A DNA stretch of 64,000 nt. Origin: Canibacter oris. GTDB lineage: Bacteria; Actinomycetota; Actinomycetes; Actinomycetales; Microbacteriaceae. The translations under genes and the position numbers were made by a program. Where the stretch lies: positions 1-64,000 of the forward strand of contig NZ_JACIFD010000003.1 in the NCBI RefSeq assembly GCF_014197205.1, written 5' to 3'. Shown one piece after another: positions 1 through 19,762 of this stretch (position 1 is its first letter; every line of letters starts with the position of its first letter). Below the pieces are notes generated by a model. The model saw only the letters and a program-made list of their open reading frames with translations, was not told the origin of the DNA and did not search any database.

Positions 1-327
1 CGCTGACCTTTTTCGCATATTCTTTCCTTTGTTCACAAGCTTACGGGTAAATCAGATGATTCTAACATGCAACTTAGTATCAACAGATGATTATTCCACA
101 TCCCCCTGTGCAGCGCCATTAAAACCCGACTTCGTCTAATTATTTATGAGGTGTGGATCACGCCGCCGTGCTTTCTCCCTTCCAAACCCACTAAAGCAAA
201 TTACTGTTAGATGTCCGTGTCGCCTCGCAGCTCGGGCGCGCCGCAAAACAGCACAAGCCGCGCGAGCAGCAGTCTTAACAATTGGCAGTGCCAACAGTAA
301 TCACAGCAGCGGCACTAAAATTAAGGC
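1..327. other. Leading non-coding stretch
   Basis: No coding region, RNA gene or clear terminator could be supported here. The first 150 bases are AT-rich and the rest approaches the GC content of the downstream gene. A GTGGATCA motif (153-160) recurs in other intergenic gaps of this window and is treated as a finding. Promoter elements for the carboxypeptidase gene at 328 probably lie here, but none stands out. Confidence 0.4.
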
Positions 328-8291: not shown

Positions 8292-9014
8292 TTAGCCTTC
8301 CTTGGCGCGGCGCATCTCTGCAAACAGCGCATCCAGAGCTTCCGCATCGGCCCAGCCATTAACCGCGACGCGCCCGTCAGTCGCCACCGTAATCTCAAGT
8401 CGATCTGGGGTTTCGCTCCAGGATCCCTGCAGGTGTTGATAGCGCGGAGTCAGGGTGTGAAAGCCCTGATTGCGTGACCCCACCCAAGGGCGCTCATGAT
8501 CGAGCTGCTCCTGCACAAAAGGCCCGTCGATTAGCAGATCGGTTGCTTCCAGGAGCTGCGCGGTGGCGGTGTCGCCCGCGGCGGCGCGCTGGCGTAGTTG
8601 CTGCAGCATGTACCCCGTGAAGCTCATCACCGACAGTCCCGCCTGCTGCACCAGCCGTGCAAACGGCGCCAGCGCCGCAGCCTGCTCAAACGGTTCCCCG
8701 CCGAGCAAAGTCACGCCCTCCACCTGCTGCTGCGGAATCTCAGCAAACAGCTCGGCCGCGCTCATCAGCTTACCGCCGCGGCTTGTCCAGTACTGCGGGT
8801 TGAAACAGCCCGGGCAGCGGATTGTACACCCCTGCACCCACACCGCAAACCGTGTGCCGGGCCCCTCGGCAACCGTTTCCGGCACCACCCGGGCAACCCG
8901 AATCAGCGGCGGCTGCCCCATCGCCGGGGTTTGCTCAGCTCCCGCCGCCGGCGCAGCCCGCATCAGCGGCGGCGCCCCGTCTTGCCGTAGTCTGGGGAAC
9001 GGCAGCTCAGTCAT
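8292..9014 (-). CDS. Radical SAM / 4Fe-4S activase-like protein
   Basis: Radical-SAM protein of 240 residues resembling glycyl-radical-enzyme and anaerobic-RNR activases. The cluster-binding Cys triad is in CTIRCPGC (C63, C67, C70), and the SAM-contact motif GGEP is at 105-108. The first ~45 residues are a low-complexity Pro/Ala extension. It is the last gene of the Ycf46 operon, 31 bases after the AAA gene. No glycyl-radical enzyme (pfl, nrdD) is visible nearby, so the target is unknown and may be one of the operon's own proteins. The start at 9014 is the only one in frame; two similar ATGs upstream fall in the other frames. Confidence 0.85.
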   Translation of the reverse strand: MTELPFPRLRQDGAPPLMRAAPAAGAEQTPAMGQPPLIRVARVVPETVAEGPGTRFAVWVQGCTIRCPGCFNPQYWTSRGGKLMSAAELFAEIPQQQVEGVTLLGGEPFEQAAALAPFARLVQQAGLSVMSFTGYMLQQLRQRAAAGDTATAQLLEATDLLIDGPFVQEQLDHERPWVGSRNQGFHTLTPRYQHLQGSWSETPDRLEITVATDGRVAVNGWADAEALDALFAEMRRAKEG

Positions 9015-9019
9015 TGAAT

Positions 9020-9051
9020 GTCGCAGTCATTAAAAGTCGCAGTCATTAAAA
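9020..9051. repeat. 16-bp tandem duplication between AAA and radical-SAM genes
   Basis: Two perfect adjacent copies of GTCGCAGTCATTAAAA (9020-9035, 9036-9051), with a third partial copy (CAGTCATTGAA) leading into the radical-SAM start. On the coding strand each copy presents an ATGACTG. The three ATGs (9046, 9030, 9014) are in three different frames, and only 9014 opens the full gene. The AAA stop codon lies inside one copy. Confidence 0.85.
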
Positions 9052-10719
9052 GTCTACGATTCGCCCGCCGCGCGACTCATCACTACGCTGCGCCTTCGCC
9101 GCGGTATCTTGCAGCGGCGCCGCGGTAGCAGACTCCGCCGCGGTAGCGTAACCAGCGCGATCTTCCCGCGAGGTTGCCGCAACTGCCCGCTCATCTGCCC
9201 AGGCGCGCAGTTTCGCGATCTGCTCCGGCTGTGTCACCGCGAGCGGCACCATAGTGTCGGCGGCGTGCCGCAGATCCTCCATCGTGAGCTTGCGCTGCCC
9301 GGTGTAAGAGTCAAACATCGCGGCCACCACGGCCTGCTCAATCTCCGCACCAGACCACCCCTTGCTGAGGTTCACCAGCTCGGTTAAGTTCTCGTTAATA
9401 TCAATGTCGTGCAGCACCTTGGGGTTCGCGAGCCGCTTGCCAAGGTGCAGCCGCCAGATCACGTCACGCTCCACGGCGGTGGGCAGATCCACAAAGAAAA
9501 TCTCATCAAAACGTCCCTTGCGCAGCAGCTCCGGCGGCAGCACGTCAATGTTGTTGGCGGTTGCGATAACAAAAACCGGGGCTTTCTTTTCCTGCATCCA
9601 GGTCAGGAAGGAGCCAAAAACACGCGACGATGTGCCTGAATCATGCGACTGCATCACTCCTGAGAAGCCCTTCTCAATCTCATCGATCCACAGCACACAC
9701 GGTGACACAGCTTCGGCCGCTTGAATCGCGGTGCGCATATTCTGTTCGCTGGATCCGACCAGCCCCGAAAACACCTTCCCGATATCAAAACGCAATAACG
9801 GCAGCTGCCAGGCCGACGCTACCGCCTTCGCGGTCAGCGACTTACCGCAGCCCGGCACGCCGGTAATCAAAACCCCGCGCGGCGCCGGCAGGCCATAGGC
9901 TGCGGCCTCCGCCATCCACGAGTTTTTGCGTTTGCCAAGCCACCGCTTCAGGTTCGTCAAACCCCCCACATCCTCCAGGTTAATTTGTGCATCAACAAAC
10001 TCCAGCATCCCGGATTTGCGAATAGTTTGCTGCTTTTCCGCGGTGATAATATCGACGTCTTTGGCGCTGAGTTTACCGTCTTCCACAATCGCCAGGGCGA
10101 TAGCGTTTTCGGTTTCTTGCAACGTTAAACCACGCGCCGCGTCAATTAGACGCTCCCGGTCGGCCTCCGGGAGGTCAATAGCGATCCGCCCCGAGTGCGC
10201 ATTGGCGGCGATGATGCCGTCCAGCGCCTCCCCGATTTGGGCAGCTTCCGGCAGCGGGAAATCCACAATAGTGACGTCTTTTTGCAGATCGATGGGCAGC
10301 TCCACGCTCGGCGCCACCATCACCAGGGTGCGTGCCACCTCGCCGTTTTGGAAAGCAGCCGCGATGTCACGAATCGCACGCACCACAGTGGGGTCAGCAG
10401 GGCGCCGCTGATCACCGAGTGAGGCGTGCAGATCCACAAACACAAAAACCGCGGCCTCGGTTTGTCGCTGCAGAATCTCAGTCAGCGCGTCGAGCGGGGT
10501 TTTGGTGTGCCCGATGGGGCTGTTGTCGCTGTCGAGCAGCCCGTCAGTGAGCGACCAGCGGTAGATTTTTCGCGGGGTGCGCACCGCGGCAGCATCGGTT
10601 GCAACCGCGGTAATCTCACGCAGCACCCGCTGCTCCTCGTGTGTTTCAATCAACAGCACCGGAAAGCGGGCTTTAATCAGCTGGGCAAGCTCCCTGCGGA
10701 AACGTGACTGCTCAGACAT
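9046..10719 (-). CDS. Ycf46-type AAA ATPase
   Basis: AAA+ ATPase of 557 residues. The N-terminal ~240 residues match the Ycf46 family ([15 protein letters not shown] near residue 15). The AAA module has Walker A GVPGCGKS (287-294), Walker B WIDEIE (344-349), sensor-1 ATANN (386-390) and arginine finger in RKGRFDE (400-406). The C-terminal ~50 residues are low-complexity Ala/Arg/Ser. The start at 10719 is chosen because GGAAGGA precedes it and it overlaps the upstream stop by 8 bases; 30 more residues are open upstream but lack a ribosome site. Ycf46 proteins are known from cyanobacteria and red-algal plastids with no settled function. Here it sits with DUF1257 and DUF2997, its usual partners. 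Confidence 0.88.
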
Positions 10720-11767
10720 CGAGGATCCTTCCTTGTCGCGGCGGCTCGGATGCCGCCGGCTTGGGTTGCTGCCCTGCCGGGGTGCGGGCAGAAGTTTGTT
10801 TGCGGCCACGCCGCGCAGTCTTACCGGCGGCGCGCGCGGTGCCGGACTGTGCGCCGCCCTGTGTCACGCCGCTTGCCGCAGCGCCGGTGTGCGAATTTGC
10901 ACCAGTAGGCTGCCCGAATGCGAGGCGGGCGCGGATCTGGGCGGCCTCGTGCGGCTGCAGCTGCAGCGCCGCAATCACATCGGTGATATCCCGCAGCCGA
11001 CCACGGTCACGCAGCGCCACCAGCTGCTCGGCGCGCGACCTGCTGATAAACGGCAGCACCTCTAGCTCATCCACGGTCGCGGTGGCAAGATTCACCAACC
11101 CCACGGTGCCGAAAGTACGCTGGGTATCAATCTCATCCCAGCTGCGATAGCGCGGTTCCGGGCGCGGTGCAGTGCGGCGCCAAGATTCCGGCTGCTGCCA
11201 TGGCTCATCTGCCGGCAACGGCGGGAAAGTGTAACCCTGATCTCGCACGTCACCATTTTGTGCCGCTCGCTGCTGCGTCGGGCGCGGCCCTTTCCGGCCT
11301 CGCTGCGGGATGCTACCGCTATCGACATCAGCGCCGCTTAAGTCATTGTCACTAATGTTACGCAGTCGCAACCACAGCGGTGCGGCTACCGTCGCGACAT
11401 CTTGCCCAAGCACTTCTTGCCGCCAGGTGCTACGCAAATATGCAGGATTCAGGTAGAGCCCCAAAAGCGTTGGGCCGATCCACAACAGCAAATGCATAGC
11501 CGGAGTTTCAGCTGCTTCATAGTCAAAGAAAGTCAAAGGCAGGTAAAGCAAGCTCAGGCCCAGCAGCACCAGCGCCATGCCCCGCAGACCGACGCTGTTC
11601 CATTTTTTGGCGAGCCAAAAATACGACACAAAACTGAGATAGCCAAGCCCCAATAGCGCCGGCAGAATCCACATACTGCGACGCAGCATCCACCCTACCG
11701 GCGGGGTTTCCGGCGGGTTCTGCGCTGTTTTGCGCGATGTTTTTTGAGCTGCGGTGCTGTGTGCCAT
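10712..11767 (-). CDS. Membrane protein with C-terminal helix-hairpin-helix domain
   Basis: Unnamed protein of 351 residues. Three hydrophobic segments (about 32-52, 60-81, 90-107) are followed by a long polar, charged stretch. A ComEA-like helix-hairpin-helix block is at about 225-284, starting VNLATATVDELEVLPF and repeating the hairpin pattern. The tail is Ala/Thr/Arg-rich and basic. The helix-hairpin-helix fold usually binds DNA or mediates protein contacts; at a membrane it would hold its ligand on the cytosolic face. The ATG directly follows the DUF1257 stop (TAAATG), and its end overlaps the AAA gene by 8 bases. Translation of the three is therefore likely coupled. Confidence 0.75.
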   Translation of the reverse strand: MAHSTAAQKTSRKTAQNPPETPPVGWMLRRSMWILPALLGLGYLSFVSYFWLAKKWNSVGLRGMALVLLGLSLLYLPLTFFDYEAAETPAMHLLLWIGPTLLGLYLNPAYLRSTWRQEVLGQDVATVAAPLWLRLRNISDNDLSGADVDSGSIPQRGRKGPRPTQQRAAQNGDVRDQGYTFPPLPADEPWQQPESWRRTAPRPEPRYRSWDEIDTQRTFGTVGLVNLATATVDELEVLPFISRSRAEQLVALRDRGRLRDITDVIAALQLQPHEAAQIRARLAFGQPTGANSHTGAAASGVTQGGAQSGTARAAGKTARRGRKQTSARTPAGQQPKPAASEPPRQGRILDV

Positions 11768-12310
11768 TTACGATTCCACACTCACCGTGTCTAACACTAT
11801 GCGGATGCTCTGATCTTCCTCCACCGTTTGCGAACTCACCTGCATCCCCACGTTTGCCGCTTGGGCGTGGATCCGCTCCACCACTGCCTGCTGCACGAGT
11901 CTGCCGTATGTGGCATCTAGTTGCCGTAACATTTCAGCCGCCGTCTCCGCGGTCACCTGCCGTTGCCGGCCGCGCCCCACAGCTACCGCCTCCGCGTGTG
12001 CTGCCCACACTCCGGTGCTGTCGCGCTGCATTGTGAAAAGGGTGTGCTGCAGCTCAGCCACCACCATGTCCTCCGCCGCTTCGTGAACGGTTGCGCCGAG
12101 CTCGGAGAAAGCCCGTACCAGCAACCCGGTGTCGCGCATTCTGGTCTGCACCTGCAACACCGTTGTCTCAGGGGAGTTAGTTTCGTGCACCGGCTGTGAA
12201 GTAACCGCGCTGTCGGTGATTTTCTCTTTTGCCTGCTGGGTTTTGTGTGTGGTCATCACCCCGGCGGTCACGGTTAGTGCCATCGGCACCAAGAATAGCG
12301 ACACGCTCAT
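11768..12310 (-). CDS. DUF1257 (Ycf35-like) protein with N-terminal hydrophobic segment
   Basis: Small protein of 180 residues. From about residue 48 it follows the DUF1257/Ycf35 pattern: a 'TRMRDTGLLVRAFSELGA' strand-helix, a central hydrophobic hairpin, an alpha-helix rich in Leu/Gln, and the closing EEDQSIRIVLDTV strand. Unusually, a short hydrophobic segment (about 3-18) and a ~30-residue polar linker precede the domain. Plastid and cyanobacterial Ycf35 are soluble and start at the domain. Its start overlaps the DUF2997 stop by ATGA. Function is unknown in every lineage I know of; the constant linkage to Ycf46 suggests a shared complex. Confidence 0.75.
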   Translation of the reverse strand: MSVSLFLVPMALTVTAGVMTTHKTQQAKEKITDSAVTSQPVHETNSPETTVLQVQTRMRDTGLLVRAFSELGATVHEAAEDMVVAELQHTLFTMQRDSTGVWAAHAEAVAVGRGRQRQVTAETAAEMLRQLDATYGRLVQQAVVERIHAQAANVGMQVSSQTVEEDQSIRIVLDTVSVES

Positions 12311-12552
12311 TCTGCAACCTCCTGCTCGGTGACCTCCTGGCCGGACGCGGTGGTGGCGACTGCGTAGTTATGACTTGCCGCGGTGACACTACGCTGATAG
12401 TCGGCGGTGAACTCTGAGGTAACGGTGGTTGCGGCAAGCAAATCTTCCAACATTGCAACATAGTCAAGACAGTCTGGCCCGGTGACACCCATGGTTTTTG
12501 CTTGCACAGTGCCGTCTTGCGCCACAGTTATTATGACTTGGGGGCTAGTCAT
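12307..12552 (-). CDS. DUF2997 family small protein
   Basis: Small acidic protein of 81 residues. The body VIITVAQDGTVQAKTMG then GPDCLDYVAMLEDLL matches the DUF2997 pattern of a beta-hairpin followed by a helix carrying an invariant Cys. The end of the domain (EFTADY) also fits. The last ~25 residues are a Thr/Glu-rich tail. GAGGAGAAAG lies just before the ATG. It is the second gene of the operon, coupled to DUF1257 by a 4-base overlap. DUF2997 genes recur beside DUF1257 and Ycf46 in cyanobacteria; no biochemical role is established. Confidence 0.75.
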   Translation of the reverse strand: MTSPQVIITVAQDGTVQAKTMGVTGPDCLDYVAMLEDLLAATTVTSEFTADYQRSVTAASHNYAVATTASGQEVTEQEVAE

Positions 12553-12563
12553 TTCTTTCTCCT

Positions 12564-13418
12564 CTATTGCGCTGTGCGCTGCCGCTCAATTTCTTGTTGT
12601 ATTGCAGCGTCCCGTTCATCATAGTCAGAATCTTGCACCCAGGCGCGCCAGGTTTGCCCGGGCCTCGCGTGCACGGTCACAACAATTCCCCGCACCTGCC
12701 CGGCGGTGTAGCTGTTGTGATCGGATGTGTATTCGCCAAGGTAAATCCCTACCCCGTTGCCTTCATCGGAGTTATAATAGCAGCCACCCGCGGCGCAGTA
12801 GGCAATTGTCTCACCTGCCGCATCAGCGAGCTGCACCTCAAGATATTCTCCCGGGCCGTAATAGTAGAAAGACCCCGTCCCGGAGCTTTGCCATTCAGCG
12901 TAAATGGGCAGATTCTCAAAAACAGTTTGTGGTTTAAGAGCCGCAACCGGCTCAACTTTGATTTTCCAGCTGGACCCATATACCGTCAGCAATTCTCCCG
13001 GCAGCATTCTTAGCACCAGCAAGTTGCGATTCGGAGCGAGTGACATTGACTGCGTAAATCTTGAAGTTTTCGATCTCGCTTCATCCTCGTAGATATGCAA
13101 GCTGACGGTGTCATCAGCCGACTCCAGCAGCGTGATTTGCAAAAGCTCCGCGCCCTTCACCTCCGCGCTTAACGGCACTACTTCGCGATGCGTGTCGCCG
13201 CTGTAGGTGGTGTCATCGATTATCTCCGCGGTTTCCGCGGCGAGTTTCCGCTCGGCGGCGAGCTGCGCGGCCATTTCAGCAGTTTGCACATACCACGGGA
13301 AAATCCGCCCGAAAAAAACCAATTGCCCGGCAACCAGCGCCGCTAATACGATACCGACAGCGCTGCTTAAAACAATAGAGAAGCGCTGCACCCGCTGGTT
13401 GATAGGGTTGATGGTCAT
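12564..13418 (-). CDS. Membrane-anchored extracytoplasmic protein, unrecognised
   Basis: Protein of 284 residues that I do not recognise. One hydrophobic segment (about 12-37) follows a short cytosolic N-terminus. The rest should face outside: a short helical stalk rich in Ala/Glu, then a beta-rich region with several aromatic residues and a Cys pair (CAAGGC). It ends in a charged Arg/Glu/Gln helix. It is the first gene of the Ycf46 operon. A TATAAA -10-like box lies 8 bases before the ATG, so the message is nearly leaderless. No catalytic motif is visible; a sensor or ligand-binding role is only a guess from topology. Confidence 0.65.
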   Translation of the reverse strand: MTINPINQRVQRFSIVLSSAVGIVLAALVAGQLVFFGRIFPWYVQTAEMAAQLAAERKLAAETAEIIDDTTYSGDTHREVVPLSAEVKGAELLQITLLESADDTVSLHIYEDEARSKTSRFTQSMSLAPNRNLLVLRMLPGELLTVYGSSWKIKVEPVAALKPQTVFENLPIYAEWQSSGTGSFYYYGPGEYLEVQLADAAGETIAYCAAGGCYYNSDEGNGVGIYLGEYTSDHNSYTAGQVRGIVVTVHARPGQTWRAWVQDSDYDERDAAIQQEIERQRTAQ

Positions 13419-13517
13419 AATTTGATTTTATAGCGTGATGCGTTATTTTAGGGCGTAATACCGTTTATGCAACAAATACCGCACTTCACCCATTAGTTTT
13501 TGCCAGTATGGTAGACA

Positions 13518-14765
13518 TTAAAAGAGCCCAGCTATCCGACGATCCATAGCCCGTTCTAGGTATTTAAAATCGTCAAACAAGCTGCGGTTCATCCAAATAC
13601 GATTACGAGATTTTCCAGTTATCTCCGTCAGCAAGCCCGTCTCGGTCAGAGTTTTTAAGGCACGCAAAACCGCCCTCTCACTAAGGCCTGTTTTTTCTCG
13701 TAGAGAGACGCTGTTAAGAACAGGCTGTTCTATCAATTCCGGCAATAACTGCCACACCGTCGCATCACGTCTCACCCCGGTAAGCCAATGTCTCATAAAA
13801 GCATAAGTGCCCCGGAGCCTATGCACCAATCCATTATTAATACATGAAGCAGAGTCAACTGCCCGTGCGAAGACTCTAATAATTGGCCCGGCATCACCAG
13901 CACGATAGCTGTCGAGAGCGGCAAAATATTCAGCTTTGTCTAATAACAGCCCACCAGAGAGCGCAACCGTGGTCCGCTTAACAACACCTTTGTGCCGCAG
14001 AAATAGATACATTAGCGCTCTGCCCACCCTACCGTTACCGTCAGCAAATGGGTGGATTGTTTCAAACTGCGCGTGGGCAATTGCACACTGTGCCACAAGT
14101 GGCAGATCGTCTCGCCGCATAAACTCCAGCAAATCTGTCATCGCAGAAGCTACAAGATCGTGATGCGGAGGTATAAAATCAGCGGTGAGCGGGCTGGAAT
14201 TGTCGGGGCCGATCCACACCTGCTGTTTTCTAAATTGCCCGACGAACTCTGGCTCAATTGCAGTCTGCTGGTGCAGCAACGCGTGGTGTATGCTCAGAAT
14301 GTTTTCTACACTGATTGTGTGCGATAACTGCTGGGCGATTTCCATTGCCCGCAAGTTGCCAACAACCGCAGCAGCGGTGCTGTCAATGCCTGGCGTCAGC
14401 TCCTCCCAAAAAAGCTGCTTAGGAGTAGTTTTGAGCTGCTCAAGCTGCGAGCTAAAATAGGCTTCCGCACGTAACATAATCGCCTCCGCCGGCTCAAGCA
14501 TTCCACGGAAGCTTACAAGGTTCAATGCCACATACCCGTCAAAGATGTAAAGGCTGCGTAGCGCGTAATCCACAACAGCGGCGTCGCTTTCCGACAGCTG
14601 TAACCGCATATCGCTAATTTTGGCTGGAATCGCTGCCCGGTAGCTGCCTGCTTGACTCGCGACATCTCGGTCTAAACGCGGCTCTGGCGTGCACGGTTCC
14701 CACGACAGTTCCTGCCATGAGACGGGTTCAACCGGCACTCTAAGCCCATCAACAGTTATTCTCAT
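13518..14765 (-). CDS. Fic family protein (probable AMP-transferase)
   Basis: Fic-domain protein of 415 residues with the complete catalytic motif HPFADGNGRVGR (238-249). Such proteins usually transfer AMP from ATP to hydroxyl side chains of target proteins. An N-terminal helix carries SSQLEQ (105-110), resembling the class II inhibitory motif [S/T]xxxE[G/N] but with Gln last. The C-terminus looks like a winged helix. I place the start at 14765 because TATAGT lies 6 bases upstream, giving a leaderless message; ten further residues are open up to 14795. GC is lower than in neighbouring operons. It shares a non-coding strip with repeat operators and the HTH gene, suggesting one accessory unit. 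Confidence 0.88.
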   Translation of the reverse strand: MRITVDGLRVPVEPVSWQELSWEPCTPEPRLDRDVASQAGSYRAAIPAKISDMRLQLSESDAAVVDYALRSLYIFDGYVALNLVSFRGMLEPAEAIMLRAEAYFSSQLEQLKTTPKQLFWEELTPGIDSTAAAVVGNLRAMEIAQQLSHTISVENILSIHHALLHQQTAIEPEFVGQFRKQQVWIGPDNSSPLTADFIPPHHDLVASAMTDLLEFMRRDDLPLVAQCAIAHAQFETIHPFADGNGRVGRALMYLFLRHKGVVKRTTVALSGGLLLDKAEYFAALDSYRAGDAGPIIRVFARAVDSASCINNGLVHRLRGTYAFMRHWLTGVRRDATVWQLLPELIEQPVLNSVSLREKTGLSERAVLRALKTLTETGLLTEITGKSRNRIWMNRSLFDDFKYLERAMDRRIAGLF

Positions 14766-14821
14766 AAGGCAACTATAACGACAGATAAGGAGCATAAATG
14801 TCGGTAAAGTCCCGCGTTACC

Positions 14822-14871
14822 AACACTTAACGTCATAAGTGTTAGTAAGCTCTTGCTGCTACCAACACTTA
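14822..14871. promoter_or_regulatory. Inverted/direct AACACTTA repeats, likely operator
   Basis: AACACTTA (14822-14829) and its inverse TAAGTGTT (14836-14843) form an 8-bp dyad around a 6-base spacer. A third AACACTTA follows at 14864-14871. The block lies 57 bases upstream of the Fic start and just past the end of the HTH gene, an appropriate place for a repressor site controlling fic. The binding protein is unknown; the HTH protein encoded next door is one candidate. Confidence 0.55.
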
Positions 14872-14933
14872 TGGCGTTGCGCTAGCGCCAGTAATCTGCC
14901 CTCGCCAGCGCCCCTAGTGAAGCTGAAATTACG

Positions 14934-15389
14934 CTACAGATCCAGTTCGCTCTCTAGGTTACGCAGCCTCTCAAATGCGGCTCGCTGTTCAGCTGCTCGC
15001 TGCTGCAGCATTTTGCTGCGGAAAGCATCAGCTTCAGCGACACTAATGCGATGATGAGAGCCCACCTTGTGTGACTTAATCTCGCCCTCCCTAATTAGCT
15101 TCATCAGCACGGGCCGAGAAACTCCAATTCTCTTCGCCGCCACAGTCGTTGTCAGGTCTGCCGGTTCCGCAATAATCTTTGGAGTTTCACCCTTGCTGAT
15201 AATACGCAAAGCATCTGTGATAACTTTTTGCAGCTCTTCTCCAATTTGTTTCGCAGCAGCGCCATTAACACTGAGTTGGATTGAAATATCCGGTTCACGC
15301 TCAGCGCTCTGCATAATCCGCTCTGCCTCTTTAACGGCAGCAAGCGGAGCCTTTACAGTAGCCCTCTCTAACAGTTCGACGGCAGTCAT
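14934..15389 (-). CDS. Excisionase-family HTH protein, probable antitoxin
   Basis: Protein of 151 residues. The first ~70 form a helical region. A MerR/excisionase-like winged helix follows at about 82-125 (TTVAAKRIGVSRPVLMKLIR, then a HHRISVAEADAF recognition segment). A charged C-terminal helix closes it. Proteins of this type are often antitoxins to PIN-domain toxins in actinobacteria. A broken PIN gene lies just upstream on the same strand, an order (toxin first) opposite to the usual one. A perfect 17-bp dyad starts 24 bases before its ATG and is a likely autoregulatory site. Confidence 0.7.
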   Translation of the reverse strand: MTAVELLERATVKAPLAAVKEAERIMQSAEREPDISIQLSVNGAAAKQIGEELQKVITDALRIISKGETPKIIAEPADLTTTVAAKRIGVSRPVLMKLIREGEIKSHKVGSHHRISVAEADAFRSKMLQQRAAEQRAAFERLRNLESELDL

Positions 15390-15412
15390 GATTTTCCTTC
15401 AGCCACGCAATA

Positions 15413-15458
15413 GATTAAGTGCAATAAGTTTATTGTGTTTCACTTATTGCACTTAATC
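15413..15458. promoter_or_regulatory. Perfect 17-bp inverted repeat upstream of the HTH gene
   Basis: GATTAAGTGCAATAAGT (15413-15429) and its exact reverse complement (15442-15458) flank a 12-base spacer. This is far longer than chance would give. It occupies the promoter region of the HTH gene starting at 15389 and lies in the gap after the PIN gene. It fits a dimer or tetramer operator for autoregulation; as RNA it would form a strong hairpin between the two genes. Confidence 0.8.
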
Positions 15459-15505
15459 GTATCAAGTTCCGCATGGAACACAAACCCTGCCGTGGAACTT
15501 TAAAC

Positions 15506-16122
15506 CTAATCTCGCAACTCAGGAATGACTCTGCGGCGCACGAATTCGGCAAAGTTAGGTGCACCCGCTTTGACCAAAGCACGGGGCAAATCGACCCCTT
15601 CAGCGTCAAGCTTGCGGTTATTTTTGGGGTTGCTCCAGTATTCTTCCTGGTCAGTGAAAACTTTCACAAACACTGACAGCGGAACATACTCAGTTAGCTG
15701 CATTAAGAACTCATCCGCAGTTAAAGTTTCATATGGCAGCTCGTCACCATACGATGATTGGGCATATTCCAGCAGATTCTTGTCAGCTGTAACCAATGCG
15801 TCTACCTCGCATGCTACAGCTGCTGAATGCACATGATAATCACCCGGATCAGGATACTTTGGCGGCTTGTCTGTACCGTATCTGGAAGCAACTTCATACA
15901 TTGCCCCACGGATCCCATTGAAGATTTGCTCTTGCGCAAATCCGCTCTTGTCCGGGTGTGTTTTCCGCCAGTGATACCCCGCCTCGATGATAATATCCTC
16001 TGAGCTGCAGAGCTGGAAAAATGGTTTTCGGTCTCATAACTGAGCAGGCATATCCAGTCGCGCAGCGTTCGGCTATATAAAATGTTAGCGTCCAGCAAGA
16101 CTCGATATGTCTGCTCAGTCAC
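15506..16122 (-). pseudogene. PIN-domain toxin gene broken by one frameshift
   Basis: The N-terminal part (GTG at 16122) opens a PIN fold with YRVLLDANILYSR, the first acidic metal site. After about 35 residues this frame drifts into non-family sequence. The family sequence resumes one frame over, through GDYHVHSAAVACEVDALVTADK (described here as two blocks), to the stop at 15506. Adding one T to a run of five Ts near 16020 (coding strand) joins both parts into one protein of about 205 residues. This is therefore a single-base slippage, frameshift mutation or sequencing error. PIN proteins are RNases, usually toxins. The start lies 16 bases after the nrdF stop. Confidence 0.75.
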
Positions 16123-16138
16123 AACACCCCTTCAGGAA

Positions 16139-17164
<1,026 letters not shown>

Positions 17165-17219
17165 TCAGTTGCGGCGCCGGTGAGGCAAGGCCGCGAGGGC
17201 TGATCCACCCCCGCACGCC

Positions 17220-19334
17220 TTACAGCATGCAGCTGACGCAGCCTTCAACCTCGGTGCCCTCAAGCGCCATCTGTCGCAGTCGGATATAGTAGATGGTTTT
17301 GATGCCTTTACGCCATGCGTAAATCTGTGCGCGGTTGACATCGCGGGTGGTTGCGGTGTCCGGGAAGAAAAGGGTTAGCGACAGACCCTGATCCACGTGC
17401 TGAGTCGCTGCAGCGTAGGTGTCGATGATCTTTTCTGGCCCGATTTCGTAGGCGTCCTGGTAGTATTCCAGGTTGTCGTTGGTGAGGTACGGAGCCGGGT
17501 AGTAAACACGGCCCAGCTTGCCCTCTTTACGGATCTCGATCTTCGATGCAATAGGGTGGATCGAGCTGGTCGAGTTGTTAATGTACGAGATTGAGCCGGT
17601 AGGTGGCACCGCCTGCAGGTTCTGGTTGTAGATGCCGTGCGCCATCACGCTGGCCTTCAGCTCTTCCCAGTCCTGCTGGGTTGGGATAGCGATGCCGGAG
17701 CGCTCAAACAGCTCCCGGACCTTAGCGGTTGCCGGCTCCCACGGCTGCTCTATGTACTTCTTAAAGAACTCACCGGAAGCGTATTTAGAGTTTTCGAAGC
17801 CTTCAAACGCGGTGCCTCGCTCAATCGCAATCTTGTTTGACGCTTTCAGGGCGTGGAACAGGATTGTGTAGAAGTAGATGTTGGTGAAGTCTACGCCCTC
17901 TTCAGAGCCGTAAAAAATCCGCTCACGCGCCAGGAAGCCGTGCAGGTTCATCTGCCCCAGGCCGATGGCGTGTGATTTATCGTTACCATCTTCGATGGAG
18001 CGCACAGAGCTGATGTGGCTCATGTCGCTGACCGCGGTGAGCGCCCGAATCGCGGCCTCTACGCTGCCACTAAAGTCTGGGCCATCCATCATTTTGGCAA
18101 TATTCATGGAGCCCAGGTTGCAAGAGATGTCTTTGCCAATCTCGTTGTAGCTGAGGTCGTCGTTGTAGGTGGTTGGGGTGTTTACCTGCAGAATCTCAGA
18201 GCACAGGTTAGACATGTTGATGCGGCCCGCGATTGGGTTTTCGCGGTTCACGGTGTCTTCGAACACGATGTATGGGTAGCCCGATTCAAACTGCAGCTCT
18301 GCGATTGTCTGGAAGAACTGCCGCGCATTAATCTTACTCTTGCGAATCTTCGGGTTATCAACCATCTCGTAGTATTTCTCGGTTACTGAGATGTCTGCGA
18401 AAGGCACACCGTAGATACGCTCCACATCGTAAGGTGAGAAGAGGTACATATCCTCACCCTTTTTAGCCAGTTCGAAGGTAATATCTGGCACCACAACGCC
18501 AAGCGACAGGGTTTTAATGCGGATCTTCTCGTCCGCGTTTTCACGCTTCGTGTCGAGGAAGTTAAGGATGTCTGGGTGGTGCGCTGAGAGGTACACCGCG
18601 CCAGCGCCCTGCCGCGCACCGAGCTGGTTTGCGTAGCTGAAGCTGTCTTCCAAAAGTTTCATCACCGGGATGATGCCGGATGACTGGTTTTGAATCTTCT
18701 TGATTGGGGCACCGGTTTCGCGCAGGTTGCTCAATAGCAGAGCAACGCCGCCGCCGCGCTTTGAAAGCTGCAGCGAAGAGTTGATGCCACGGGAGATTGA
18801 CTCCATGTTGTCTTCAATCCGCAGCAGGAAGCAAGACACAAACTCACCACGCTGTGCCTTGCCGGCGTTGAGGAAGGTTGGGGTTGCCGGCTGGAAACGA
18901 CCAGAGATGATTTCTTCAACGTAGCGTTTTGCCTGCTCCTGGTCGCCCTGCGCCAGCGCGATCGCGACCATGACCACGCGGTCCTCGAAGCGCTCCAGGT
19001 AGCGCTTCCCGTCGAAGGTTTTCAACGCGTAGGAGGTGAAGAACTTAAACGCGCCCAGGAAGGTCGGGAAGCGGAACTTCAGGCTGTAAGCGTAGTTGGT
19101 GAGCTCCTCTACGAAACCGCGTGGGTACTGCTCCAGCACCGCAGCCTCGTAGTACTCGTTTTCAATCAAGAAACGCAGCCGCTCATCAAAGTCGTGGAAG
19201 AAAACGGTGTTCTGGTTAACATGCTGCAAGAAGTACTGTCGGGCCGCTTCGCGGTCTTTATCAAACTGAATTTTGCCGTCTGCATCATACAGATTCAGCA
19301 TGGCATTTAGCGCGTGATAGTCAGTTTCGCTCAC
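17220..19334 (-). CDS. nrdE: Class Ib ribonucleotide reductase large subunit NrdE
   Basis: Catalytic alpha subunit, 704 residues from the GTG at 19334, reducing NDPs to dNDPs with NrdH as electron donor. The sequence is very close to actinobacterial NrdE throughout, including [13 protein letters not shown], the NLCSEILQV active-site region and the C-terminal redox pair in EGCVSCML. The GTG overlaps the nrdI stop as GTGA, which favours this start. A TTG at 19376 would add 14 residues but overlaps nrdI by 46 bases. No activity (ATP-cone) domain is present, as expected for class Ib. Confidence 0.95.
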
Positions 19335-19762
19335 GCGTGAAGAGTCGTGCCCTGGCTGGGTTGCTGTTGTTTCCAAAACCGTTCCAATCCCTGTTTGACG
19401 CGTACTACGTCTTCTGGTGTTCCAAAGAGTTCAAATTTGTAAAGCAGCGGTACCTGGCATTTGCGGGCTACAATCTCACCCGCTAAGCCGTAGGCTTCCC
19501 CGAAGTTGGTATTGCCCGCAACAATCACCCCGCGTAGTAAACCACGGTTGTGTGCGTCGTTGAGGAATTTAATGACCTGTTTCGGGACCGCTTTAGTATC
19601 CGGGCCGCCGCCGTATGTCGGCAAGATCAGGACGTAGGGCTCAGTGATTTGCAACTGCGCATCTGTGCGGCGCAACGGAATCCGCTGTGCCGGCAACCCC
19701 AGCTTTTCAATAAAGCGGTGAGTGTTACCGGAAACACTTGAGAAATATACGATGCTTCCCAC
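19331..19762 (-). CDS. nrdI: Flavodoxin-like NrdI protein
   Basis: FMN protein of 143 residues that supplies the oxidant for assembling the manganese-tyrosyl radical in NrdF. Signature [11 protein letters not shown] binds the FMN phosphate near the N-terminus. PTYGGG and [17 protein letters not shown] match NrdI. It lies between nrdH (68-base gap with a hairpin) and nrdE (4-base overlap), the standard order. Confidence 0.95.

Follow-up and report, generated by a model that had tools for sequence, protein, structure and literature searches.

A Ycf46-type AAA ATPase of Canibacter oris belongs to a recurring five-gene set that may encode a membrane-tethered remodelling machine

The first 64,000 nucleotides of contig NZ_JACIFD010000003.1 of Canibacter oris (the window) contain a minus-strand operon, at positions 8,292 to 13,418, that encodes a Ycf46-type AAA ATPase, DUF1257-like and DUF2997 proteins, a membrane helix-hairpin-helix (HhH) protein with transmembrane-like (TM-like) segments, a NrdG-like radical-SAM protein and, as a sixth product, an anchored protein. 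Gene neighbourhoods and homology show that the first five genes recur as one set, and that a common C-terminal tail is present on the AAA and TM-HhH proteins. The presence of the set in unrelated bacteria, together with the same tail on two unrelated proteins, makes it look like one real machine. The operon may thus encode an AAA+ remodelling machine tethered to the membrane, in which DUF1257 and DUF2997 form the adaptor, the tails serve for docking and the radical-SAM enzyme modifies a protein of the system, perhaps DUF2997; this reading is offered tentatively, as a serious candidate rather than a settled outcome. The features concerned, all on the minus strand of the window, are as follows.

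9046..10719, minus strand: Ycf46-type AAA ATPase (PF00004, 110.4 bits; phrog_8638)
9049..9069, minus strand: C-terminal tail GGRIVDF of the AAA protein (pattern hit 9046-9069; tail survey)
10712..11767, minus strand: membrane HhH protein, 351 aa, two TM-like segments (HHH_3, profile relatives, hydropathy)
10715..10732, minus strand: C-terminal tail GRILDV of the TM-HhH protein (sequence, tail survey)
11768..12310, minus strand: DUF1257-like protein, 180 aa, with a hydrophobic N-terminus (profile chain, alignments, hydropathy)
12307..12552, minus strand: DUF2997 protein, 81 aa (PF11211, 2e-14)
12469..12471, minus strand: codon of the invariant Cys28 of DUF2997 (38-sequence alignment)
8292..9014, minus strand: NrdG-like radical-SAM protein, 240 aa, with CX3CX2C and GGEP (PF13353, 5e-36)
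8295..8405, minus strand: C-terminal 37 residues of the radical-SAM protein, suggestive of a DUF2997-like hairpin (hhalign)
12564..13418, minus strand: anchored protein, 284 aa, one N-terminal TM-like segment (open reading frame [ORF], hydropathy)

Relatives of the AAA protein were found at an E value of 1e-60 in 11 of 299 Microbacteriaceae genomes, including that of C. oris (completeness, 99.3%); these searches used 10722 as the start of the protein, and its ATG is at 10719. All ten other loci also contain genes for DUF2997, radical-SAM and DUF1257 proteins (the weakest single-sequence matches, with E values of 0.005 and 0.0015, became firmer with profiles). Nine contain the full set, and the tenth has four genes on a 3.3-kb contig that ends early. 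The gene-neighbourhood survey proposed in an initial annotation, made from the sequence alone, found the five genes together in all nine family relatives with a long enough contig, which exceeds what chance would give. DUF2997 was detected in 3 of 59 close relatives, C. oris again included, and at an E value of 0.001 in 3 of 396 genomes across the phylum, two of them above the cut-off. Given these counts and those of the AAA gene, the five-gene set is patchy. The five genes are also present on three actinobacterial plasmids (two from Paenarthrobacter and one from Rhodococcus), which were all those examined among five matches listed, and are annotated there as AAA, hypothetical, DUF2997, helix-hairpin-helix (hypothetical in one plasmid) and 4Fe-4S proteins.

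A wider genome-collection scan used a Treponema AAA protein as a midpoint query, and the best 80 of at least 560 relatives were analysed for partner genes within 4 kb and on the same strand. All five genes were found in 12 of the 80 loci (Clostridia, Gastranaerophilales and other bins), AAA with both DUF1257 and DUF2997 in 10 (Myxococcota, Omnitrophota, Chloroflexi, Hodarchaeota and others) and AAA with DUF1257 in 20, all cyanobacterial by title. AAA with DUF2997 and radical SAM occurred in three loci (two spirochaetes and one archaeon) and other subsets in four. The remaining 31 loci had the AAA gene alone, so the AAA family extends beyond the system. The five-gene set occurs in six gene orders, namely, DYhAr, ADrYh, AYDhr, hrAYD, DhrAY and DrAYh (A, AAA; Y, DUF1257; D, DUF2997; h, TM-HhH; r, radical SAM), which points to a shared function rather than the descent of one operon. 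The radical-SAM and membrane HhH genes, first taken for a local extension of a cyanobacterial operon, are instead regular members of a five-gene system found in several phyla, and the TM-HhH gene belongs to this five-gene class. Among the best 80 of 312 viral AAA loci, DUF1257 was found in 59, DUF2997 in 58 and both in 57. The counts for the 80 genome-collection loci use cleaned profiles, as the iterated DUF1257 profile took in some wrong-frame ORFs in GC-rich loci.

The two tails of the window proteins, RGGRIVDF in the AAA protein and QGRILDV in the TM-HhH protein, conform to one pattern. The survey expression, [RK]-x(0,1)-[VILMFA]-[DE]-[FLWYIMV] at the very C-terminus (R-x-[VIL]-[DE]-[FLW] in summary form), was applied to 79 of the 80 loci, L080 being left out because its AAA gene is cut by the contig end. 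The tail was found in 38 of the 48 AAA proteins whose locus contains DUF1257 or DUF2997 versus 3 of the 31 whose locus has neither (P = 6e-10, a descriptive value uncorrected for kinship), and in 20 of 28 versus 3 of 31 when the 20 cyanobacteria were removed (P = 1e-6). Loci were labelled as DUF-containing with the iterated DUF1257 profile (E value below 1e-6) plus a clean viral-trained profile. Only 4 of 2605 other ORFs of at least 100 aa carry the tail, and one of these is a predicted Mrr-type nuclease in a five-gene operon (L106:7809-8549; Mrr_cat, PF04471, 75.9 bits) with a TM-like N-terminus and the end GRRLDV. Profile relatives of the TM-HhH protein comprise 30 ORFs, 29 of which have the exact C-terminal tail, the other carrying a single additional residue. 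Of the 28 loci with HhH, 27 have the tail on the AAA protein; the exception, L093, has an AAA ORF that stops three residues early beside a contig end and was counted as lacking the tail. The consensus tails are RGGRx[LVI]DF for AAA and GRx[VL]D[LF] for HhH, and since the two proteins have different folds by annotation, the tail is a shared linear motif.

In ten genomes, the exact end GGRx[VIL][DE]F gave nine matches, each at the stop of the AAA gene; none was found on other proteins and none with the reversed control. The AAA protein of the genome with no exact match, G005, ends in GGRTVDY. The hydrophobic-Tyr-X C-terminus (HbYX) was not found on the tails, which end in [VIL][DE][FLW] and the like. 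A membrane ORF in locus L086 that ends in ERLEL is probably due to chance. Two genes after the AAA gene of Mycobacteriophage Shida, an ORF without a Pfam match (L034:7888-8688) has tail-like GRAIDF and GYALDF near its C-terminus.

The AAA domain lies in the C-terminal half of the Ycf46-type protein, and its N-terminal half has no Pfam match. Homology extends past the AAA core, with phrog_8638 matching residues 5-526 at 488.6 bits and a Geminocystis homologue aligning at 41.8% over 92%; the solved structures nearest to the core by sequence are those of p97/Cdc48. The DUF2997 protein matches PF11211 at 53.6 bits (cut-off, 24.1), and its G14, G25 and C28 are invariant, the Cys being retained in 38 of 38 aligned sequences. 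Both assignments in the initial annotation, a Ycf46 AAA motor and a DUF2997 protein with a conserved Cys, were therefore sound. Its DUF1257 assignment stands as homology and not as Pfam membership. PF06868 gave 12.2 bits, below its cut-off of 22.2, but intermediate profiles link the window group to canonical DUF1257 and thereby settle its identity: the window group matched a DUF1257-like profile from Clostridia and Gastranaerophilales (98.5%, E value 2.8e-15), which in turn matched canonical DUF1257 (97.9%, 5.2e-13). Direct comparison with the canonical profile gave 93.6% (2.1e-7), and 12 control comparisons gave at most 1.2%. The protein is accordingly classed as DUF1257-like by profile homology. 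The hydrophobic N-terminus first noted in it is present as one TM-like segment by hydropathy; such a stretch is typical of DUF1257 of the five-gene class, and most canonical DUF1257 proteins lack it. A longer DUF1257 protein of about 420 aa (L088:9648-10910) appears to contain repeated DUF1257-type units in its fold model, and similar lengths occur in L087, L091 and L110.

DUF1257 and DUF2997 are predicted to form one composite alpha/beta domain. A search of solved structures with either sequence gave nothing below an E value of 0.09. The composite was modelled from a Myxococcales pair (L040) treated as one chain, read through the stop codon, with 32 further rows in the alignment (nine viral read-through pairs, one L194 ORF, 11 DUF1257 and 11 DUF2997 sequences). 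The AlphaFold model has a predicted local distance difference test score (pLDDT) of 90.4 and a predicted template modelling score (pTM) of 0.85, has its lowest confidence in the linker and towards the C-terminus, and gives DUF2997 a beta-beta-alpha-beta arrangement. Structure matches extend over both proteins (up to model 1..198). The N-terminal domain of spermine synthase (3c6m) matched with a Z score of 10.9 over 94 aligned residues (root mean square deviation, 2.9) and AdoMet decarboxylase with 7.2-7.6, both too weak for a fold assignment; DUF4468 and KA1 gave 8.6. With Foldseek, RnlA was the sole row at an E value of 0.001 (TM-score, 0.25). In addition, a short viral ORF (L194:4182-4763) matches the DUF1257 and DUF2997 profiles both.

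The radical-SAM protein matches PF13353 (Fer4_12/radical-SAM) at 124.4 bits. Its only three Cys residues (63, 67 and 70) are those of CX3CX2C, and this motif and GGEP are conserved in 33 of 33 radical-SAM members collected, consistent with putative SAM cleavage. The activase type originally assigned to it holds as NrdG-like similarity and not as activase function: TIGR02491 (NrdG) gave 105.6 bits, below its cut-off of 126.1, and neither the glycyl-radical domain PF01228 nor NrdD (PF13597) was found in the genome of C. oris. These absences, and the protein being the sole PF13353 match in that genome, count in favour of the possible action of the radical-SAM enzyme on DUF2997 or DUF1257 that the initial annotation had supposed, with the DUF2997 Cys as a candidate target. 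Its C-terminus is suggestive of a DUF2997-like hairpin. With hhalign, this region matched DUF2997 at 85.5% (E value 5.7e-6; 16 sequences), and at 75.2% (2.5e-5) with about twice as many sequences, versus at most 1.0% for other families; a strict hairpin pattern was found in 27 of the 33 members.

TM-like segments were found by hydropathy in three of the products (one in the anchored protein, two in the HhH protein and one at the N-terminus of DUF1257), in agreement with the membrane side of the system proposed at the outset. The window HhH protein scored 25.5 bits with HHH_3, below the cut-off of 27, and its homologues in L110 (71.1 bits) and L102 (54.4 bits) both pass. The 284-aa anchored protein, the remainder of which is probably extracytoplasmic, matched no Pfam, NCBIfam or PHROGs family and gave one chance-level PADLOC row (E value 0.034). 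Among 20 loci searched, it was found only in one congener (G004). In eight of the other ten family loci, a different protein with one TM segment is encoded just upstream of the AAA gene, and no homology between the two was detected (profile link at most 1.6%). By these comparisons the anchored extracytoplasmic gene is a lineage-specific sixth gene, and it was rejected as a part conserved beyond the genus.

In the proposed machine, the DUF1257-DUF2997 unit would be the adaptor that receives the client. The shared tail would be a docking peptide that lets the motor and the membrane anchor bind one common surface, on either the adaptor or the AAA ring itself, by analogy with the docking of proteasomal ATPases by a C-terminal motif. 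The radical-SAM protein, via its DUF2997-like hairpin, may take the position of DUF2997 and modify a protein of the system, most likely DUF2997 near its invariant G-x-x-C; such a modification could arm or repair the adaptor when oxygen is low. The HhH domain might hold on to the client, which could be nucleic acid. A bolder version is that this is a new kind of AAA+ machine, with motor and membrane anchor on one receptor via the same tail, an adaptor switched on by a radical-SAM enzyme docking as a DUF2997 mimic, and stripped-down versions in phages and plastids; it is unlikely to hold in full.

Several observations weigh against the proposed machine. The first tail expression separated the loci less well (17 of 48 versus 5 of 31, P = 0.08; background, 5 of 2605), and the wider form was chosen after the first had missed the cyanobacterial tails. 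In viral loci, the tail was found in 10 of 60 AAA proteins with DUF1257 or DUF2997 versus 1 of 18 without (P = 0.44), and the AAA protein of a Paenibacillus plasmid (L029) lacks it despite the presence of both DUFs and radical SAM. A fold of tail, DUF1257 and DUF2997 from L088, a chain read through two stops, placed the tail in stretches of mean pLDDT 42-45 (whole model, pLDDT 79.1 and pTM 0.43) and did not show it docked. The composite-fold query and nine of its rows were read through stop codons, and that model came with no inter-domain error estimate. The hairpin match is short, at 20 to 31 columns. Furthermore, DUF1257 and DUF2997 occur with no radical-SAM gene nearby, as in cyanobacteria, almost every viral locus and some other loci, so the modification could not be universal.

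Four other explanations were weighed. The radical-SAM protein could be an ordinary NrdG or PFL activase that is merely located in the operon, as NrdG is its closest curated model and PFL-activating enzyme its nearest solved relative by sequence. The missed NrdG cut-off and the lack of PF01228 and PF13597 matches in its own genome contradict this role. Among the 11 family genomes with the system, PF01228 is present in two and PF13597 in one, and these three genomes have a second PF13353 match beside the glycyl-radical enzyme (GRE) gene (ORF seen for G005). The radical-SAM gene also stays with the AAA gene through several gene orders; this explanation was rejected, is largely refuted and is hardly tenable. 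NrdG/PflA-type enzymes activate glycyl-radical proteins, and DUF2997, with its invariant Gly14, Gly25 and Cys28, could instead be a small spare-part radical carrier activated by the NrdG-like enzyme. This is very doubtful, as DUF2997 occurs without a nearby enzyme in most viral loci and in ten bacterial and archaeal loci, and PF01228 gave no match in the C. oris genome.

The Fe-S protein might also act as a redox partner, Fed7 in cyanobacteria and the radical-SAM protein elsewhere, with a redox-active DUF2997 Cys. An Fe-S protein in both versions (the duf2997-ycf35-fed7 cluster appears in an excerpt of PMC4284462) and the invariant Cys are consistent with this, but conservation of CX3CX2C and GGEP in all 33 members is as expected of an active SAM enzyme, and the redox role is judged improbable. 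A phage-defence or conflict module is likewise unlikely: a membrane-held motor and a DNA-binding HhH protein, joined in one locus by a membrane Mrr nuclease that carries the shared tail, would act on invading DNA. ComEA-type HhH domains are often DNA-binding, the spread of the set is patchy and mobile (AAA in 11 of 299 family genomes, and plasmids), and the L106 operon adds its Mrr_cat protein with a TM-like N-terminus and GRRLDV tail. However, PADLOC returned only IetA (85.1 bits, to the AAA core) and weak viperin, Cas7, DruH, TRIP13 and mad8 rows, and no model was matched by more than four ORFs among 103 of 178 neighbouring ORFs (25 of 76 models listed; no control set). In addition, the core is common in viral loci (57 of 80), and AAA with DUF1257 occurs in 20 cyanobacterial loci.

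The six minus-strand ORFs of the operon (13418-12564, 12552-12307, 12310-11768, 11767-10712, 10719-9046 and 9014-8292) are spaced by +11, -4, 0, -8 and +31 bases, which confirms the tight same-strand packing initially described. Directly upstream, on the same strand, lies a gene for a Fic-domain protein (13518-14795; PF02661, 73.7 bits). At the 5' end of the operon and beyond it (12000-16000), the G+C content drops to 0.48-0.56, compared with about 0.60-0.69 before. Aerobic ribonucleotide reductase genes, which by eye we take to be nrdF- and nrdE-like, are located 3 kb from the operon (16139-19376). A search for RNA families found none, and promoter matches were no commoner than in shuffles.

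Other contexts were also observed. In three spirochaete loci (L037:5752-9785, L038:2582-9745 and L028:2606-9575), the AAA and radical-SAM genes are embedded in baseplate-type clusters, with a baseplate V domain in L028 (55.5 bits) and L037 (54.9 bits) and a weak GPD hub below the cut-off in L028; L038 is joined to them by shared neighbour families, and DUF2997 is present in L037 and L038. A Geminocystis plasmid (L030:2106-7521) has DUF1257, DUF2997 and AAA genes near RloB and zeta-toxin genes. In two phages, a gene of about 200 aa follows the AAA gene (L032:7843-8481 and L033:7656-8261), the L032 product having no Pfam match. Many viral loci have a similar spacing between AAA and DUF1257.

Cyanobacteria retain Ycf46, Ycf35 and DUF2997; the first two are also retained in red plastids, and many viral contigs carry the core. 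The five-gene version turns their role into simple questions: whether DUF1257 and DUF2997 bind each other, what partner the tail has and what the radical-SAM protein targets. Excerpts of the literature place duf2997, ycf35 and fed7 in cyanobacterial cluster g (PMC4284462) and ycf35 and ycf46 in red plastids (PMC5940233). An excerpt of PMC7496141 describes an slr0374 operon responsive to several stresses and, citing Jiang et al. 2015, lower EcaB activity upon ycf46 inactivation. Among the PMC papers listed, none describes the five-gene set by title or abstract.

The cyanobacterial and plastid ycf46 and ycf35 genes encode the same AAA family and DUF1257 as the window, and 18 of the 20 AAA proteins from cyanobacteria have an EYQR[LM]EF-like tail. 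In contrast to the window, no radical-SAM or TM-HhH gene was found nearby in the 20 cyanobacterial loci, DUF1257 lacks the hydrophobic N-terminus, and DUF2997 is in another cluster, with the ferredoxin Fed7 (PMC4284462). With NrdG/PflA activases, the window protein shares the single-cluster radical-SAM core and CX3CX2C; unlike them, it falls below the NrdG cut-off, has no GRE match in its genome and has an extra DUF2997-like C-terminus. Phage cassettes, such as those of Rhizobium phage RHph_I4 and Pseudomonas phage SM1, have the AAA, DUF1257 and DUF2997 families near each other, as in C. oris. Unlike the five-gene set, such cassettes mostly lack the tail, HhH and radical SAM, and these two have a further gene of about 200 aa after AAA. 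Proteasomal ATPases dock by a C-terminal HbYX tail. The AAA core of the window protein is nearest to p97/Cdc48, and its tail is proposed to dock as HbYX does, whereas its form is R-x-[VIL]-[DE]-[FLW] and it is also carried by an unrelated membrane protein.

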